Positions 4,842 to 29,495 of a DNA stretch of 29,514 bases are shown here, one piece after another. The DNA comes from a virus, in IMG/VR virus record IMGVR_UViG_3300044546_000550, positions 1 to 29,514 of that record. The stretch is one strand, 5' to 3'. Under the pieces are notes generated by a model, which was given only the letters and a program-made list of their open reading frames with translations, was not told the DNA's origin and ran no database searches. The translations under genes were made by a program, and so were the position numbers. Position 1 is the first letter of the stretch; the number at the start of each line of letters is the position of its first letter.

Positions 4842-7111
4842 TGGGAACGGAATTATATATAAATGGTTTTTTAGTGGATCTGGATGAAAATCCGGTTTTC
4901 CCTTTAACGTTTTCGGTAATCGAATTAACAGATCTTTCCAAACGAAGCGGGGCGAAATCAAAAACAATCACTTTGCCGGGCACGTCAAGAAATTGCGCCC
5001 TGTTAAATTCAATCTTTATCCTGGATAATGCTCAAAGCATTTCGGCGAATCAAAGTAATTACATTGATTTTGATCCAACAATCAAAGCAACCGGAGTTGT
5101 TTATCAAAATGGGCTTTTGCAATTTAACGGAATCGCTCAATTATTGAGTTGTAAATATTCCAATAATTCATGGAGCTTTGAAGTTGCGTTAATTTCGGAC
5201 ATGCGGGATTACATCGCCGAAATGTCAAAGGTGAAATTAAATGAATTGGATTTCTCGGAATATCAGCACATTTTAAACATTGCAAATGTAGAAGATACCT
5301 GGAATGGATACAACAAAATAAACGGGACAAATGTACTTGTTAAAAGTGCCGGAACCTGGCAGGATGGTGCCGGGTATTATTACGGACTAATTGAATACGG
5401 TTACAATCGAGTTGATCAATTTACATGGGCTTTAAATCAATTGCCTTTACAGATATTTTGTTACCAAATATTAAAAAAGCTTTTCGCGAAAGTTGGTTTA
5501 ACATGGAATTCAAATTTTCTTGAAAGCGATTTATTCAGGCGTTGCGCGCTGGCTTATCAAGGCGGGGACATTCCGACTATTTCACCGGCGCAAGCTGATA
5601 ACGATAGCGCGTATTTAACCGAAATTCCAAATTCAAACGGATTTATAATTAATGGACAAACCCAATTAGGCGTAACGACTTTCAATGATCAAGGCGGTCC
5701 AACATTTGTTTTCAGTTTTGGAACGGCAACTTTTACCGATCTAATTGACGCAACAGTTAATCAAGACAATTTAGGGCAAATTATTTCCGGATCACCTGTT
5801 AAATTTAAATGTTTATCGGAGGGGCTTTACAACATTAATTATAAAGGGAGGCATGTTATTGATTTGAGTTTCAATTTGAATGGAGCCACAATACTAGGTT
5901 TAAACGGATATTTTAAACTATTTGCAAACGTTTATAAGAATGGCGCTTTGTATTCACAGGAATCAGTTTACGAGGGACCAATAACATCGACGGCATTAAC
6001 TCAATCTTTCACCGTTGATTTTGATCACACGCGCGCGATTAATACAAATGTGAATGATGAGTTTACAATTTATATTCGTTTTGTCGTTCACTTGCCCAGC
6101 ATTGATTTAAGCGGATACGTTTCAAACACTCCGGCGTCTTACAATGTTTCTGTTTCCACAATGGACACAAATGTTGATTTCGCCAAACAAATTCAAGAAC
6201 TTACGGCCGGAGCTTCGGTTTATCTTTCCGCTTTATTGCCAGACATGACCGGATCGGACTTTTTCAACGGGCTTTGCAAAATGTTTAATCTTTTAGTATC
6301 GCCTTCAAAAACAGATCCTAAAATTTTGGAAATTGAGCCTTTGATTGAATATTACAAAAGCTCAAATGAAGCTTTACAATGGACGCAAAAAATAGATGAA
6401 TCAAAAGAAATCGAAGTCATTCCTTCAATTAATTTTGCCTCAAAGAATTACTCATTTAGGTTCGCTGATTCGGATGATTATTACAATGTACTTTACTTCA
6501 ATAATTTCGGTGAGCAATACGGTTCTTTTTTATTGGAGGCGCAAAATGAATACGGGAAAGATAATACCGTTTATCAATTGCCATTCGCTCAAAAGGTGAT
6601 CGCAAACATTCCGGAAAATGATACAACATTTACGGATTTAATTACTCCTCAATGTTGGGTAATTGGATCAGATGGAAACGTTTCACCAAAACAAGGAAAG
6701 CCGTTTATTGTTCAAGTTGGAAAAGTTAGGGGGACAAAGTTTAAAATTATTAACGAATCAGGAGCAACAGTTACATTGGACAATTATCCTTATGTTGGGC
6801 ATTTGGACGATTTAGAATTTCCGGATTTTGATTTAAATTTCGGAGTGCCAAAAGTTTTGTATTGGGCCGGAGCTCAGTTCACGCAAAAAAATCTTTATCC
6901 ATATCATGAGCAATTTATCAAGGAAATTATTTCTCGTTTTGGTAAGCTATTAAAATGCTCTATTAACCTAAACTCAACGGATATTTTTACGCTTGACTTT
7001 CAATATTTAATTAACATTGGAGGCGTAGTTTACAGGCTTCAAAAAATCACCGATTACAATACGTCAAACGACGAAAGTACAAAAGTAGAATTATTAAAAT
7101 ACATTAACTAA
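4841..7111 (+). CDS. Large tail-tip (hub-like) structural protein
   Basis: The 756-residue protein starts with a short beta domain containing LSKRSGAKSKTITLPGT (about 33-49), followed by FNGIAQLLSCKY and a LDFSEYQHI stretch. This is the N-terminal arrangement of a tail hub-like family common in Bacteroidetes phages. The middle is Asn, Tyr and Ser rich and beta-prone, suggesting carbohydrate or receptor-facing domains. The C-terminus (about 690-756, from FIKEIISRFGKLL through FDFQYLINIGGVVYRLQKI) looks like a conserved closing domain. Both ends overlap neighbours by a TAATG junction. It is probably the Tal-like hub or receptor-binding baseplate component; the precise role is inference. Confidence 0.65.
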   Translation: MGTELYINGFLVDLDENPVFPLTFSVIELTDLSKRSGAKSKTITLPGTSRNCALLNSIFILDNAQSISANQSNYIDFDPTIKATGVVYQNGLLQFNGIAQLLSCKYSNNSWSFEVALISDMRDYIAEMSKVKLNELDFSEYQHILNIANVEDTWNGYNKINGTNVLVKSAGTWQDGAGYYYGLIEYGYNRVDQFTWALNQLPLQIFCYQILKKLFAKVGLTWNSNFLESDLFRRCALAYQGGDIPTISPAQADNDSAYLTEIPNSNGFIINGQTQLGVTTFNDQGGPTFVFSFGTATFTDLIDATVNQDNLGQIISGSPVKFKCLSEGLYNINYKGRHVIDLSFNLNGATILGLNGYFKLFANVYKNGALYSQESVYEGPITSTALTQSFTVDFDHTRAINTNVNDEFTIYIRFVVHLPSIDLSGYVSNTPASYNVSVSTMDTNVDFAKQIQELTAGASVYLSALLPDMTGSDFFNGLCKMFNLLVSPSKTDPKILEIEPLIEYYKSSNEALQWTQKIDESKEIEVIPSINFASKNYSFRFADSDDYYNVLYFNNFGEQYGSFLLEAQNEYGKDNTVYQLPFAQKVIANIPENDTTFTDLITPQCWVIGSDGNVSPKQGKPFIVQVGKVRGTKFKIINESGATVTLDNYPYVGHLDDLEFPDFDLNFGVPKVLYWAGAQFTQKNLYPYHEQFIKEIISRFGKLLKCSINLNSTDIFTLDFQYLINIGGVVYRLQKITDYNTSNDESTKVELLKYIN

Positions 7112-9711
7112 TGGCGGAAAAATCAGCAATATTCACACTCAAAGTTGACACGGGCAACAGCGTTAACGACATCAATTCCTTTGATAAAAGTTTACAGGGC
7201 CTCAATAAGGACATTGATAAAACTCAAAGCAATCTAAACGACAGCACGGCAACGGATAATTTTGCTCAAAACTTACAGGATTTGAACGCAAAAGTTGAGG
7301 CGGGCGGATTAACGATGAGGCAATTATCAAAAGTTGTGCGCGAATATCAATCAATCGCCATGGCTACCGGATCAACCTCACCGATTGGGATGGAGGCGAT
7401 TAAGCGAGGCGCGGAGTTAACCGATAAAATGGGCGATGTTCGAAAGCAAACAACCGCTTTAAGTTCCGACTTTGTGAAATTGGATACAGCCGTTCAAGCC
7501 ATTGAAACAGGCGCATCCGTTTTCCAGGGCGTTCAAAGTGCAATCGCATTAACCGGCGTTGAGAATGAAAAGCTCATGGAAACAATGGTAAAATTGCAAG
7601 CCGTTCAAGGCGTTGCAAGTTCGATTAATACCATTGCAAACAATTTAAATAGTGAATCAGTTTTAGGCCTTCAATTAAAGACGGCTTGGGAAAAGATTTA
7701 CGCGGTTGCCGTTGGTAATTCAACGGGCGCCATGAAGGGCCTCCGGGTTGCAATGCTATCCACGGGAATTGGTGCGTTGATCATTGGAGTTGGTGCGTTA
7801 ATTGCGAATTGGGATAAATTAAAAAACGCGATCAGCTCGCAAACAGGCGCGCAAAAAATATCCAATCAAGTAATGAAAACCGCGACTTCTCAAATATCAA
7901 ATGAGTTGAGCGCATCGGATAAATTGAGCCGTCAATTGAGGGATGAAACTTTAACCCGTCAACAAAAGATACAAAAGGTTAAGGAATTTCAATTAGCTTA
8001 TCCAGGTCTATTGAAAAACGTAAACCTTGAAACAATGTCAATTGCTCAGATCAACGGGCAATTAGTAAAGAACATTGAATTATTAAAATTGCAAGCTCAG
8101 GCCAAAGCAATCGAAGCGGTTCGCGCTGAAAAGTTACAAGAGAAACTTGAAACGCAATTAGACATCCAGGCGCAAGCCCAGGAGGAGGCCGGCAATTTTA
8201 CAATTGATATAGGGAGCAACGCTAAAAATGGATGGATCGGATACAGTACCGGAGCGGAAAACGCGAAACTCGCAACAATGAATTTTACTAAAATTCAAAC
8301 CAACGGAACAAAGCAAATTGATAAAGAGGTTAAGGCCTTGGATACGGCATCGGATGCGATTGATAAACAAATTGCATTGATGAAAAAACAAGGGGCTTCC
8401 GTAGATGATGGATCAACTAAAATAGTTGACTATTCAAAAAATGTAAAAAAATCAAGCGACGCAACAAAGGACGCAACGCAAGCGATTGAGGACAAAGCTC
8501 GCGCAATTGAACAAATTGCCGAATGGGAAAAAGAGGCCGGAGATATGATGTTGACGGAATACGAGAAACAAAAAAATGATGTCAAATTAAAATATGAGGA
8601 AAGGTTAAAAATTGCGCGCACATATTATACCGAAGGATCAAAAGAGGTACAGGATCTTTTGATCGCTCAAATGAATGAGGAAAATGATATTGAGTTAAAA
8701 CAACAGGAACAAGCCTACGCACAGAAAAAAGCCTCGGATGATTTAGTAACGGCCGAAATAGAGGCAACCGAAAAACGAAAGTTGGAATTGGCGAAAGAAT
8801 ATCAAGCTCTTATTGCGGATGAATATCAAAAGGAAATTTTAGCTTTTGAGAAAACCCAAGAGGATAAAGCTAAAATTTTAGGCGAAAGTTTAGCCTTGGG
8901 AAATATTTCCCAAGAGGATTACATGAAAGAAATGTTAAACCTGGAGGAGGAATATGACAAGAAAATCGTTGAGGTTAACAAAAAGAAAAACAAGGACATT
9001 TCCGACGAGGAAAAAAAGACAAATGAGGAAAGAGTTGCAAGAGCAAAGGATTTAATTGAGCAAGCTCAAAAGGGCCTTGATGATCTTAAAAAAGTAAATG
9101 ACATCGTAAAGATGTTTGAGGAGAATAAACTTGCGGAAAACAAGAAACGCGCGGAACAACAAACGTTAATTTTAGATGAGCAAATGAAAGCTCAGTTAAG
9201 CAATCAAAATTTAACGGATGCTCAAAAAACGGCAATTGAGGAAAGCTTTGCCAAAAAGAAATATGAAATTCAATTAAAGCAATTCAAGGATGATGATAAA
9301 ATAAAACGCGCTCAATTTAACCGTGATAAAGCTTTCAGGATCGCACAAATTGGAATGGATACAGCCTCGGCAATTACAAAAGGAATCGCGGAATTTGGAC
9401 CGCCTCCATCACCGGCCGGGATTGCTTCAATTGCTTTTGCCTCTGGTATTGGTATTGCCCAGGCGATGGCTGTATCAAAACAACAATATCAAGGCGGATC
9501 AATGCCAACAGCTCCAAACCTTTCAGGTGGGGCCGGAATGGGCGCAAGCGCTTTCCAAATTAATCAAGGCAATCAACAAACGACTAGCACAACAACGGCA
9601 ACAGGAACCCCAACAACAACGCCATATGTTCCCGTTGTTCTAGTTGAAAGCGATGTAACAGGAATTCAAAACAAAGTTAAGGCCCAAGAAAATAAAAGCC
9701 TTTTCGGGTAA
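7111..9711 (+). CDS. Tail tape measure protein
   Basis: The 866-residue protein has the hallmarks of a tape measure. The N-terminal region is Ser, Asn and Gln rich and helical, and a hydrophobic Gly-rich segment (AMLSTGIGALIIGVGALIAN, about 214-233) could insert into the host membrane. A very long charged coiled coil runs from about 440 to 740. It closes with a Gly, Ala, Thr and Pro rich tail (residues 770-850) containing GTPTTTPYVP. At about 1.5 angstrom per residue the tail would be near 130 nm (rule of thumb). No sheath or baseplate-wedge genes are visible, so a non-contractile siphovirus tail is likely. It follows the tail-tip genes rather than preceding them, which is the reverse of the usual order. 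Confidence 0.88.
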   Translation: MAEKSAIFTLKVDTGNSVNDINSFDKSLQGLNKDIDKTQSNLNDSTATDNFAQNLQDLNAKVEAGGLTMRQLSKVVREYQSIAMATGSTSPIGMEAIKRGAELTDKMGDVRKQTTALSSDFVKLDTAVQAIETGASVFQGVQSAIALTGVENEKLMETMVKLQAVQGVASSINTIANNLNSESVLGLQLKTAWEKIYAVAVGNSTGAMKGLRVAMLSTGIGALIIGVGALIANWDKLKNAISSQTGAQKISNQVMKTATSQISNELSASDKLSRQLRDETLTRQQKIQKVKEFQLAYPGLLKNVNLETMSIAQINGQLVKNIELLKLQAQAKAIEAVRAEKLQEKLETQLDIQAQAQEEAGNFTIDIGSNAKNGWIGYSTGAENAKLATMNFTKIQTNGTKQIDKEVKALDTASDAIDKQIALMKKQGASVDDGSTKIVDYSKNVKKSSDATKDATQAIEDKARAIEQIAEWEKEAGDMMLTEYEKQKNDVKLKYEERLKIARTYYTEGSKEVQDLLIAQMNEENDIELKQQEQAYAQKKASDDLVTAEIEATEKRKLELAKEYQALIADEYQKEILAFEKTQEDKAKILGESLALGNISQEDYMKEMLNLEEEYDKKIVEVNKKKNKDISDEEKKTNEERVARAKDLIEQAQKGLDDLKKVNDIVKMFEENKLAENKKRAEQQTLILDEQMKAQLSNQNLTDAQKTAIEESFAKKKYEIQLKQFKDDDKIKRAQFNRDKAFRIAQIGMDTASAITKGIAEFGPPPSPAGIASIAFASGIGIAQAMAVSKQQYQGGSMPTAPNLSGGAGMGASAFQINQGNQQTTSTTTATGTPTTTPYVPVVLVESDVTGIQNKVKAQENKSLFG

Positions 9712-21798: not shown

Positions 21799-21806
21799 TA
21801 TATTTG
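21799..21806 (+). promoter_or_regulatory. Candidate promoter box before replication gene leader
   Basis: TATATTTG matches TAnnTTTG exactly, but no clear TTG lies at the expected upstream distance, so strength is uncertain. Transcription would start near 21813, about 104 bases before the replication gene. Confidence 0.45.
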
Positions 21807-21812
21807 TGATGT

Positions 21813-21916
21813 GTTCATCCGACATTATAAACACAAAGAAATTATTTAGCCATTTTAAAAAAGGGGAGGTCGGATGCCCTGGATTTAAAATGGCTTTTTT
21901 ATTTAAAATTTATTCC
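21813..21916 (+). ncRNA. Structured leader of the replication gene, possible attenuator
   Basis: The leader contains CATCCGAC (21816-21823) and its exact complement GTCGGATG (21869-21876) in the loop of the terminator hairpin at 21848-21895. An inner AGGG/CCCT pairing (21862-21865 with 21877-21880) would hold the loop. This allows a pseudoknot or a choice between terminated and readthrough forms. It is a candidate only; I cannot match a known riboswitch class. Confidence 0.4.
21848..21900 (+). terminator. Terminator hairpin 17 bases before replication gene start
   Basis: A perfect 12-bp stem (AGCCATTTTAAA with TTTAAAATGGCT) spans a 24-base loop and ends in six T residues (21895-21900). It may end the small-gene transcript or, together with the box at 21799, attenuate the replication gene. 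Confidence 0.75.
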
Positions 21917-22690
21917 ATGGCAACAGGAAAAAAAAAGGTAATTGTTTACGCCGATTGGAAAAGTACGTTCGAACTCCTTTCAGATGAGGAGGCCGGTAAG
22001 TTAATAAAACATTTTTTCCGTTATGTAAACGATGAGGATCCGGAACCTCCAGAAAGATTGATTGAAATTCTTTTCGAGCCAATCAAGGTAACATTAAAAA
22101 GAGATTTAGAAAAATGGGAAATTCGTTCCGGAAATGCAAAGGCAAACGGATTGAAAGGCGGGCGCCCAAAAAGCGAAAATAACCCAAAAGAACCCACTAG
22201 GTTATTTTTAGCACAAAAAAAACCTGTTAGTGTTAGTGTTAGTGATAGTGTTAGTGTTAGTGTTAAAGAAAACAATTCTTTAATTACTAGCGTAATTAAA
22301 GAATGTGTTACAGAAAAAACGGCTTCACGAAAATTCGTGAAACCTACGCGCCAAGAAATTCAGGATTTTATAATTTTAAATTCTTTTGTAATTGATCCGG
22401 ATTACTTTATCAATCATTACGAAAGCAACGGTTGGAAAGTTGGTAAAAATTCCATGAAAGATTGGAAAGCAACTTTGAGAAATTGGAACACGCGCGAAAA
22501 AGAAAATCAAAAAAGTAAACCTCAACAAAAAAATTATGATGACAATTTCAGGAAAGCCGATGGATCAATCGATCATGAGGCAAAACGACAGGCATTTGTT
22601 AGAAAAGTTTTGGGAACCGATCAACAAGAAAATGCAACTCAAAAATTTGACAATATCCAGGACATCGGCTTTATCGATGTTTCAGGATAG
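21917..22690 (+). CDS. Replication initiator / replisome organiser-like protein (DUF6291 N-domain)
   Basis: The 257-residue product is taken from 21917 (MATGKKKVIVYADWKSTFEL). The frame is open back to 21806, but that stretch crosses the terminator hairpin. Residues 7-95 match DUF6291: LLSDEEAGKLIKHFFRYVND and DPEPPERLIEILFEPIKVTL, then EKWEIRSGNAKANGLKGGRP. A linker at about 104-117 is PVSVSVSDSVSVSV, encoded by hexamer repeats. The C-terminal part (about 140-195) has TRQEIQDFIILNSFVIDPDY and SMKDWKATLRNWNTREK, as in many phage initiators. It should melt or mark the origin and recruit host helicase; no phage helicase or polymerase is present. Confidence 0.72.
   Translation: MATGKKKVIVYADWKSTFELLSDEEAGKLIKHFFRYVNDEDPEPPERLIEILFEPIKVTLKRDLEKWEIRSGNAKANGLKGGRPKSENNPKEPTRLFLAQKKPVSVSVSDSVSVSVKENNSLITSVIKECVTEKTASRKFVKPTRQEIQDFIILNSFVIDPDYFINHYESNGWKVGKNSMKDWKATLRNWNTREKENQKSKPQQKNYDDNFRKADGSIDHEAKRQAFVRKVLGTDQQENATQKFDNIQDIGFIDVSG
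22226..22261 (+). repeat. Six tandem hexamers (GTTAGT iterons)
   Basis: Five GTTAGT units and one GATAGT unit run without gaps within the replication gene and encode alternating Val-Ser. Such repeats within initiator genes often serve as binding sites for the initiator itself. They directly precede two inverted repeats, forming a candidate origin. Confidence 0.85.
22275..22304. repeat. Perfect 13-bp inverted repeat in replication gene
   Basis: Left arm 22275-22287 (ATTCTTTAATTAC) and right arm 22292-22304 (GTAATTAAAGAAT) are exact complements around a TAGC loop. It lies 13 bp after the hexamer repeats. No T-run follows and it sits mid-gene, so it is unlikely to be a terminator. Confidence 0.85.
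22324..22341. repeat. Perfect 8-bp inverted repeat in replication gene
   Basis: TTCACGAA and TTCGTGAA flank two A residues. It is the second dyad in 67 bp and may be part of the same origin structure. Confidence 0.8.
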
Positions 22691-23306
22691 CGAAAACGCA
22701 ACGGAACATCCAGGAAAGGCAATTGAAATCTTTTACCTGGTATCAACTTCAATTTTTGGAATCAGACCGGAAAACGTAAATACCGAACTTTTCCAATTGG
22801 TTTTAATGGTATTGCCAAACAGATTCCCGGGGATAACAATCCAGGACATTCGAAACGCTTACTTTGAAAATGTGATCACAAAAAAGGAATTTGTTTCTTT
22901 AACACGTGATGAGCTACTCGATCCGATTGCAATTTATTGGATCAAGAAACAAAACCTTTTGCAACAAATTAAATTGATTGAAATGGAAAACGAAAAAGAG
23001 CAAAACGAAAAACAAAAAGAAATTGATTTTTACAATCAAGCTCGCGAGCTTTACAAAGAAAGTTTGAAAGGCGGTGAATGGCTCGGCGATATGTTCCAGG
23101 CTCGCGTAATTGCGCGCGGTTTTTGGGATGCGCTTTACCTGGATGAACGCGAAGGATTGAAAATGATTGCAACGGATGAGGTTAACGAATTGAAAATAAA
23201 ATCCTCATTGGATCCGATGATCCTGGTTTATGATCCAAAGTTTTATTTGGCCCATGAGGTGATAAAATACTCAGTAAGGCAACAAAAAAAATTCATTGAG
23301 CTTTGA
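22632..23306 (+). CDS. Hypothetical protein linked to phage replication modules
   Basis: The 224-residue product is taken from the ATG at 22632 (MQLKNLTISRTSALSMFQDS). The in-frame ATG at 22536 would overlap the replication gene by about 150 bp, and the one at 22677 would drop the ISRTSAL start. It contains LFQLVLMVLPNRFPGITIQD, LTRDELLDPIAIYWIKKQ, then a long charged coiled coil (about 115-150) and SLKGGEWLGDMFQARVIARG. Similar proteins accompany replication genes in Bacteroidetes phages, possibly as loaders or accessory factors; function is unknown to me. Confidence 0.62.
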   Translation: MQLKNLTISRTSALSMFQDSENATEHPGKAIEIFYLVSTSIFGIRPENVNTELFQLVLMVLPNRFPGITIQDIRNAYFENVITKKEFVSLTRDELLDPIAIYWIKKQNLLQQIKLIEMENEKEQNEKQKEIDFYNQARELYKESLKGGEWLGDMFQARVIARGFWDALYLDEREGLKMIATDEVNELKIKSSLDPMILVYDPKFYLAHEVIKYSVRQQKKFIEL

Positions 23307-28835: not shown

Positions 28836-29347
28836 CTTTTTGGGATCATGAGGCTTACAAAATTGCTAAACGCATCACAAACGATCGCGAAATTCACCGC
28901 GATTTAGTGGCGTTTATTTATATCCTGTTGCATGATCGCCAAATTAACGCAATATCTTTGCCGGCTACCTTCGCGCGTTACGCATATCAACAATACAATT
29001 GGCGCAATTCTCAATTTAATAAATTATATTTGTCTTATTCTGTTGACATTTCAAGCATTGACGTTCAAGCCGTTGTTAGTGAATACGAGGAAAGCCATTA
29101 CGGAAATTTATTGGATGAGTATTTCGAGCAAAAAAGCGAAACGGATTCCGAGTTTTTCTGTAAAGAAATTGCAAAACTTGTTTTTCAATCAATGAGTTAC
29201 CGAGAAATTGAGGCATTGACAGGAATACGAATCAAAGATATTTTTAACGCAATCAAACAGTTCAAACATGATTTTAAACATTATTGCCAGCATAGGGATA
29301 GCGAGGTTTTTAATGACCTTACCGCTCCCGGACATGAAGCCGTTTAA
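28832..29347 (+). CDS. Small sigma-factor-like protein
   Basis: The 171-residue product resembles the short sigma-like proteins found near terminase genes in Bacteroidetes phages. The first part (about 20-68) carries DLVAFIYILLHD and FARYAYQQYNWRNSQFNKLY, reminiscent of region 2. The C-terminal HTH (about 112-150) has MSYREIEALTGIRIKDIFNAI (as MSYREIEALTGI then RIKDIFNAI), typical of region 4. It would direct host RNA polymerase to late promoters. It overlaps the membrane-protein gene at 29268. No anti-sigma or late-promoter consensus can be fixed from this window. Confidence 0.68.
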   Translation: MTFWDHEAYKIAKRITNDREIHRDLVAFIYILLHDRQINAISLPATFARYAYQQYNWRNSQFNKLYLSYSVDISSIDVQAVVSEYEESHYGNLLDEYFEQKSETDSEFFCKEIAKLVFQSMSYREIEALTGIRIKDIFNAIKQFKHDFKHYCQHRDSEVFNDLTAPGHEAV

Positions 29348-29495
29348 TTGCTTCGCTTGCCTTTCACATTGGATCACAATGATTGTTGTATTTTTGCACA
29401 TCGTTTTTTTCAATGGCCCCATTTACGCAACTATTTATCCTTTCGCATCGTTTTTGATTGCGGATTTAATATTTCAATATGAGCAAAATCTTTAA
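29268..29495 (+). CDS. Small membrane protein with CxxC motif (complete copy)
   Basis: The long form has 75 residues (MILNIIASIGIARFLMTLPL, then KPFNCFACLSHWITMIVVFL and on to LIADLIFQYEQNL); the short form starts at 29313. The long start adds a hydrophobic segment but overlaps the sigma-like gene by 80 bp. There are two or three membrane segments. The CxxC could bind metal or form a disulphide. This copy is intact, whereas the copy at 17-199 has its long N-terminus cut by the window edge. Function is unknown. Confidence 0.68.
   Translation: MILNIIASIGIARFLMTLPLPDMKPFNCFACLSHWITMIVVFLHIVFFNGPIYATIYPFASFLIADLIFQYEQNL

Follow-up and report, generated by a model that had tools for sequence, protein, structure and literature searches.

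The window, that is, the whole stretch of DNA analysed in this study, is a 29.5-kb virus record from a phage of Bacteroidota bacteria. Nearly all of its genes lie on the plus strand, and its two ends nearly duplicate each other, with almost identical ORFs at 17-199 and 29268-29495. A gene encoding a replisome organiser-like initiator of 257 amino acids was located on the plus strand at 21917-22690 on the basis of its ORF, a Pfam match to DUF6291 and the links of its C-terminal domain; a longer ORF from 21806 is an in-frame upstream extension of this gene, whose ATG lies at 21917. The ORF at 22536-23306 overlaps the 3' part of the initiator gene and extends downstream of it. This ORF had no Pfam or PHROG match and, judged by its position, could encode a helicase loader. 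The DUF6291 gene is annotated as a replication protein in the isolated phages elemoA and Olleya phage Harreka_1, and the gene that follows it encodes a primase/helicase in elemoA, a primase in snork and tooticki, a COG1484 replication protein in phi13:2 and a DnaB-like helicase in Vibrio 1.074.

The DUF6291 domain of the initiator (21938-22171, plus strand, residues 8-85) matched Pfam PF19808 with an E-value of 1e-21 and a profile score of 77.3 bits, above the gathering cut-off of 27.2. The C-terminal domain (22307-22552, plus strand, approximately residues 131-205), with the pattern KFVKPT...YESNGWKVGKNSMKDWKAT.R.W, is common to replisome organisers and helicase loaders and was found in many phage proteins with other N-terminal parts, namely Phage_rep_org_N, HTH_36 or DUF1376. 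The PHROG families matched by these relatives were replisome organizer, DnaD-like helicase loader and replication initiation protein, and sequence similarity indicates that the domain is homologous to that of annotated replisome organisers and DnaD-like loaders. Phage_rep_org_N and DnaD-like loader proteins share the same C-terminal domain (YESNGWKVGKNSMKDWKA) with the window initiator, and several of them also carry period-6 dipeptide linkers (DKDKDI, EIELEK). Unlike these proteins, the window initiator has DUF6291 as its N-terminal domain, and most of their genes lack the TRRM-loop hairpin described below. In the predicted model both domains were confident, whereas residues 94-135 were disordered and coincided with the DNA repeats, in keeping with the first-pass annotation, which had placed the repeats in a probable protein linker. 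An AF2 model of the C-terminal domain, for which a DnaD/DnaT fold was considered, had a core pLDDT of about 90. When the folds of the whole model and of this domain alone were compared with the PDB, no usable match emerged, and neither domain was matched structurally; a search of the initiator sequence against solved structures gave no match, an NCBIfam search returned sub-threshold noise only, and no literature on DUF6291 was found.

All three kinds of repeat reported in the first-pass annotation, namely hexamers from 22226 on, a 13-bp inverted repeat at 22275-22304 and an 8-bp inverted repeat at 22324-22341, were present at these positions. The hexamers form the top-scoring tandem repeat in the window. 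Positions 22226-22261 consist of three copies of GTTAGT, one GATAGT and two further GTTAGT, and a partial copy continues to 22265. On the plus strand this array (22226-22265) encodes VSVSVSDSVSVSV, and the repeat search, its codon bias and its recurrence in relatives mark it as a candidate unwinding element. DNA folding predicted no secondary structure for the array as a single strand. Its exact codons have a probability of 5e-7 under the codon use of the window genome, in which AGT makes up 13% of serine codons.

The gene was compared with 116 non-redundant relatives, among which the 77 non-redundant loci found by protein search served as an unbiased subset. Codons were tested in 21 non-redundant relatives collected by protein similarity alone, 18 of them with the tract; relatives fetched with the GTNAGT pattern were left out of the codon counts and of the array counts in the 77 loci. 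Relatives that keep the protein without the repeats were sought and mostly not found: 71 of the 77 carry a run of C-free hexamers (GWWART), and 68 have at least three. The common unit, G-W-W-A-R-T, has nearly no C on the coding strand. Serine is encoded by AGT at 63 of 66 sites in the array tract, whereas elsewhere in the same genes the figure is 44 of 223 (p = 1.5e-30). In the codon test set, tract valines use GTT or GTA only, aspartates GAT only, and asparagines AAT in 30 of 31 cases. Within the array linkers, V and D frequently replace each other, as do S and N. The check for conservation of DNA over protein proposed in the first-pass annotation thus came out in its favour, with repeats kept across related phages while the amino acids change, and comparison with the relatives shows selection acting on the linker at the level of its DNA.

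The first-pass annotation had likened the site to origins with iterons. The hexamers are real, but they look less like iterons bound by the initiator than like a C-free region without structure that unwinds, and better candidates for iterons are located some 40-125 nt before the end of the array, on its upstream side. In the window, a 9-bp inverted repeat (AAAATAACC/GGTTATTTT), which was absent from the first-pass annotation, lies 5' of the array at 22176-22208 and, together with AACCCA direct repeats, constitutes a candidate initiator-binding element. This inverted repeat is 11 bp long in the closest relative, L001, whose protein is 87% identical to the window initiator, and is present as a tandem duplicate in L002 and L114. 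By hexamer count the upstream repeat of the window is not significant alone (p = 0.55). Repeated hexamers (TCAACA, GAAGCA, AACTAA, ATCGCA and others) occurred upstream at p<=0.05 in 47 of the 109 array-bearing loci used for the upstream-hexamer and hairpin-position tests, and the repeats are clear in many relatives, for example L097, L218 and L025. Family-wide, hairpins are concentrated a second time at 40-100 nt ahead of the end of the array. Across the family, the array is preceded by inverted and direct repeats that differ from lineage to lineage.

A stem-loop, H1, is located at 22271-22309. Its perfect 13-bp core (22275-22304) is formed by arms at 22275-22287 and 22292-22304 around the loop TAGC (22288-22291), and the stem extends to 17 bp with a bulged G22305. 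The window contains two 13-bp inverted repeats with a spacer of up to 30, of which H1 alone is short-looped; the other perfect repeat, at 8834-8878 (AAATTTTAGCTTT) within ORF 7111-9711, has a 19-nt spacer. Only 0.05 13-bp inverted repeats with a loop of 3-10 were expected per simulated genome, and a hairpin as long as H1 arose in 96 of 20,000 synonymous recodings, which, with the improbable codons of the array, agrees with the earlier claim that the repeats go beyond coding need. Folded as DNA, the 80-nt stretch with H1 and a second inverted repeat, H2, reached -18.1 kcal/mol (z = -6.8); for the corresponding stretch in L001, z was -8.9. All 13 pairs of H1 are kept in L001, three of them changed on both sides, while the residues encoded in this region differ (LITSVI versus LSINID). 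The H1 site of L002 and L114 holds a 12-bp stem with one mismatch, and in L205 a 10-bp stem that differs in sequence and has the loop TAAC lies at almost the same place. One more compensated stem pair was seen in L170 and L195.

Across the 109 array-bearing loci, perfect hairpins with 4-nt loops cluster 0-40 nt after the array. The loop has the form TRRM in 23 of 28 near-array hairpins versus 3 of 50 elsewhere. Perfect TRRM-loop hairpins after the array numbered 24, compared with 0.27 (maximum 4) in 300 shuffles, a test that counts loci as independent after thinning for similarity. The loop falls in one reading frame in 17 cases and in another in 7, which argues against protein constraint, and the motif is specific to the coding strand, as no hairpin carried its complement. 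In eight genes with the motif RK(L/Q/K/A)(K/E/A)F the codons vary and the stretch is still palindromic; in six of these, Arg CGC pairs with Ala GCT, or CGA/CGG with Ser TCx, so that the coupled codon choice keeps the outer stem pairs. TRRM hairpins of at least 6 bp occurred in 18 of the 71 array-bearing unbiased loci and are therefore a frequent, not a universal, part; they were absent from most non-DUF6291 organisers examined. By these comparisons, the array and the stem-loop are conserved at the DNA level and in fixed order, in a gene family tied to replisome organisers. A wobble test of RNA versus DNA function was not discriminating (3 of 24 stem-end mismatches were wobble pairs, 14% being expected). 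A DnaG start trinucleotide (YTR) at the loop was also considered and demoted to a mere idea, because the closing base is a pyrimidine in 18 of 23 loops only.

The role of H2 (22321-22344, with the perfect 8-bp repeat at 22324-22341) is uncertain. The repeat noted in the first-pass annotation is real but weaker than H1. It is at most a possible part of the system, since the case for it comprises two sequences and one compensated pair (with L001) and since the right arm codes for a protein motif that is conserved; H2 was not seen in L002 or L205.

The initiator gene is preceded by what looks like a structured 5' leader RNA, a candidate new one, at 21799-21916. From its sequence, the leader comprises a promoter (TATATTTG), which we take to be of the Bacteroidota type (TAnnTTTG), a small hairpin (P1, 21816-21823/21869-21876), an intrinsic terminator hairpin (21848-21859/21884-21895) and a T-run, followed by the ATG. 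The loop of the small hairpin pairs with that of the terminator hairpin as a pseudoknot. The same layout, with other sequences and covarying stems, was found in many relatives, among them L001, L002, L004, L114, L205, L211, L102 and L170. Of the 53 leaders with a T-run that were tested, 23 outperformed every one of 60 shuffles. No Rfam family matched the leader at its gathering score.

Taken on sequence evidence, the linker region of the DUF6291 initiator gene (about 22176-22309) is probably the replication origin of the phage, best read as a coding-embedded theta origin that combines repeats for binding, an array for unwinding and a stem-loop; we put the probability of this reading at roughly 0.75. 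The origin candidate inside the initiator gene proposed in the first-pass annotation is thus supported at the level of inference, by an array that is kept and by DNA conserved over protein. The linker DNA appears to double as an origin because relatives keep the repeats and the hairpin despite change in the protein, and the order of binding repeats, easily melted segment and stem-loop within an organiser-type gene fits an origin embedded in coding sequence. The cultured relatives Flavobacterium phage 11b, elemoA and snork/tooticki share this anatomy. GC skew, a check proposed in the first-pass annotation, was uninformative both overall and at fourfold sites, with no switch anywhere in the window, where nearly all genes share one strand, and none at 22.2 kb.

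From this arrangement we infer the following series of binding, melting and loading steps. The initiator would bind the candidate inverted and direct repeats at 22176-22208, whereupon the adjoining C-free and structure-free hexamer array (22226-22265) would melt. The coding strand, once exposed, could fold into the stem-loop at 22271-22309, whose 4-nt TRRM loop would act as a strand-specific signal for the DnaD-like C-terminal domain to load a helicase or primase. It is a tentative idea, to which we give somewhat less than even odds, that in DUF6291 phages the stem-loop with the conserved TRRM loop beside the C-free array is a dedicated strand-specific signal for single-strand loading or priming and that the protein linker is a by-product dictated by the DNA.

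The main rival to the origin reading, which we consider unlikely, is that the array and the stem-loop act in the mRNA and control translation or decay of the initiator, for example through autoregulation, with the protein binding its own message. RNA-level control of this gene is plausible given the structured leader in the same gene, and the loop motif is confined to the coding strand, with no hairpin carrying the complementary loop. Such strand specificity, however, is equally expected of single-stranded DNA at a melted origin, and the upstream inverted and direct repeats together with the C-free hexamer run match the anatomy of an origin; moreover, two experimentally studied replisome organisers have similarly placed origins (PMC8965321).

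It is less probable still that the region is a mere flexible linker devoid of DNA function, in which the hexamers arose by replication slippage and the hairpin was perfected by template switching. Template switching can homogenise palindromes, the linker is disordered in the predicted model, and the copy number or unit order of the array differs between close relatives (L301/L302; L202/L204). Nevertheless, the arrays are rich in substitutions and yet almost free of synonymous C-ending or TCN codons, palindromes are rebuilt from different codons, and hairpins that are unrelated in sequence are found again and again equally far from the array and with a common loop, a sharing that neither slippage nor template switching predicts. 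The least probable alternative, and a very improbable one, is a cis site that the initiator binds in a different process, for instance recombination, packaging or partition. Repeats resembling binding sites are in themselves no proof of initiation, and the phage has genes for RecT and SbcC-like proteins as well; the links of the protein family and the neighbouring genes are nevertheless replicative.

Origins inside initiator genes have precedents in lambda O, as the first-pass annotation had pointed out, and in TP901-1 and Tuc2009. The initiators of TP901-1 (ORF13) and Tuc2009 (Rep2009) bind direct-repeat-rich origins in their own genes, and these origins were experimentally identified in the repeat-rich parts of rep (PMC8965321). 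The window resembles these lactococcal P335 phages in having an initiator gene with an internal repeat-rich candidate origin, and the rep gene of Tuc2009, in which the record of that phage also places the origin, likewise contains tandem repeats, in a part of the linker with little C. The repeat units differ, the N-terminal parts have no evident sequence likeness, and a TRRM-loop hairpin sought in the rep genes of TP901-1 and Tuc2009 was found in neither. The lambda ori inside gene O comprises four 18-bp iterons and a 38-bp AT-rich sequence (PMC3349717). The candidate elements of the window similarly place initiator-binding repeats before a melting segment within an initiator gene; in contrast to lambda, the candidate binding repeats are short and lineage-specific, and the candidate melting segment consists of C-free hexamers in frame and is followed by a stem-loop with a conserved loop. 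Its in-frame array of C-free hexamers and its conserved TRRM loop set the window apart from these precedents, and no paper on in-frame hexamer arrays in phage initiators was found.

If the reading of the TRRM stem-loop is true, it would represent a kind of origin module so far undescribed in replisome-organiser phages. The common TRRM loop offers a handle on helicase or primase loading at such origins. The origin reading also provides a function and a testable origin for DUF6291, a family of unknown function common in Bacteroidota phages, in which, to our knowledge, few phage origins have been mapped. The linker is an example of coding DNA whose nucleotides outlast its amino acids in conservation, and it suggests a possible explanation for the odd VSVSVS and DKDKDK linkers in phage replication proteins.

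Coding-embedded origins may generally be marked by hexamer arrays in frame. Period-6 dipeptide linkers (ENDNEN, EIELEK, DKDKDKDI) were observed among loci L031-L080 (for example L031, L048, L062, L068 and L075), mostly in replisome organisers with unrelated N-terminal domains. The initiator of L205 (3300011338_000766) is chimeric: its N-terminal domain, upstream repeats, array and the start of the hairpin region are window-like, and its C-terminal half is unrelated to that of the window, as though modules had been joined by recombination at the origin.
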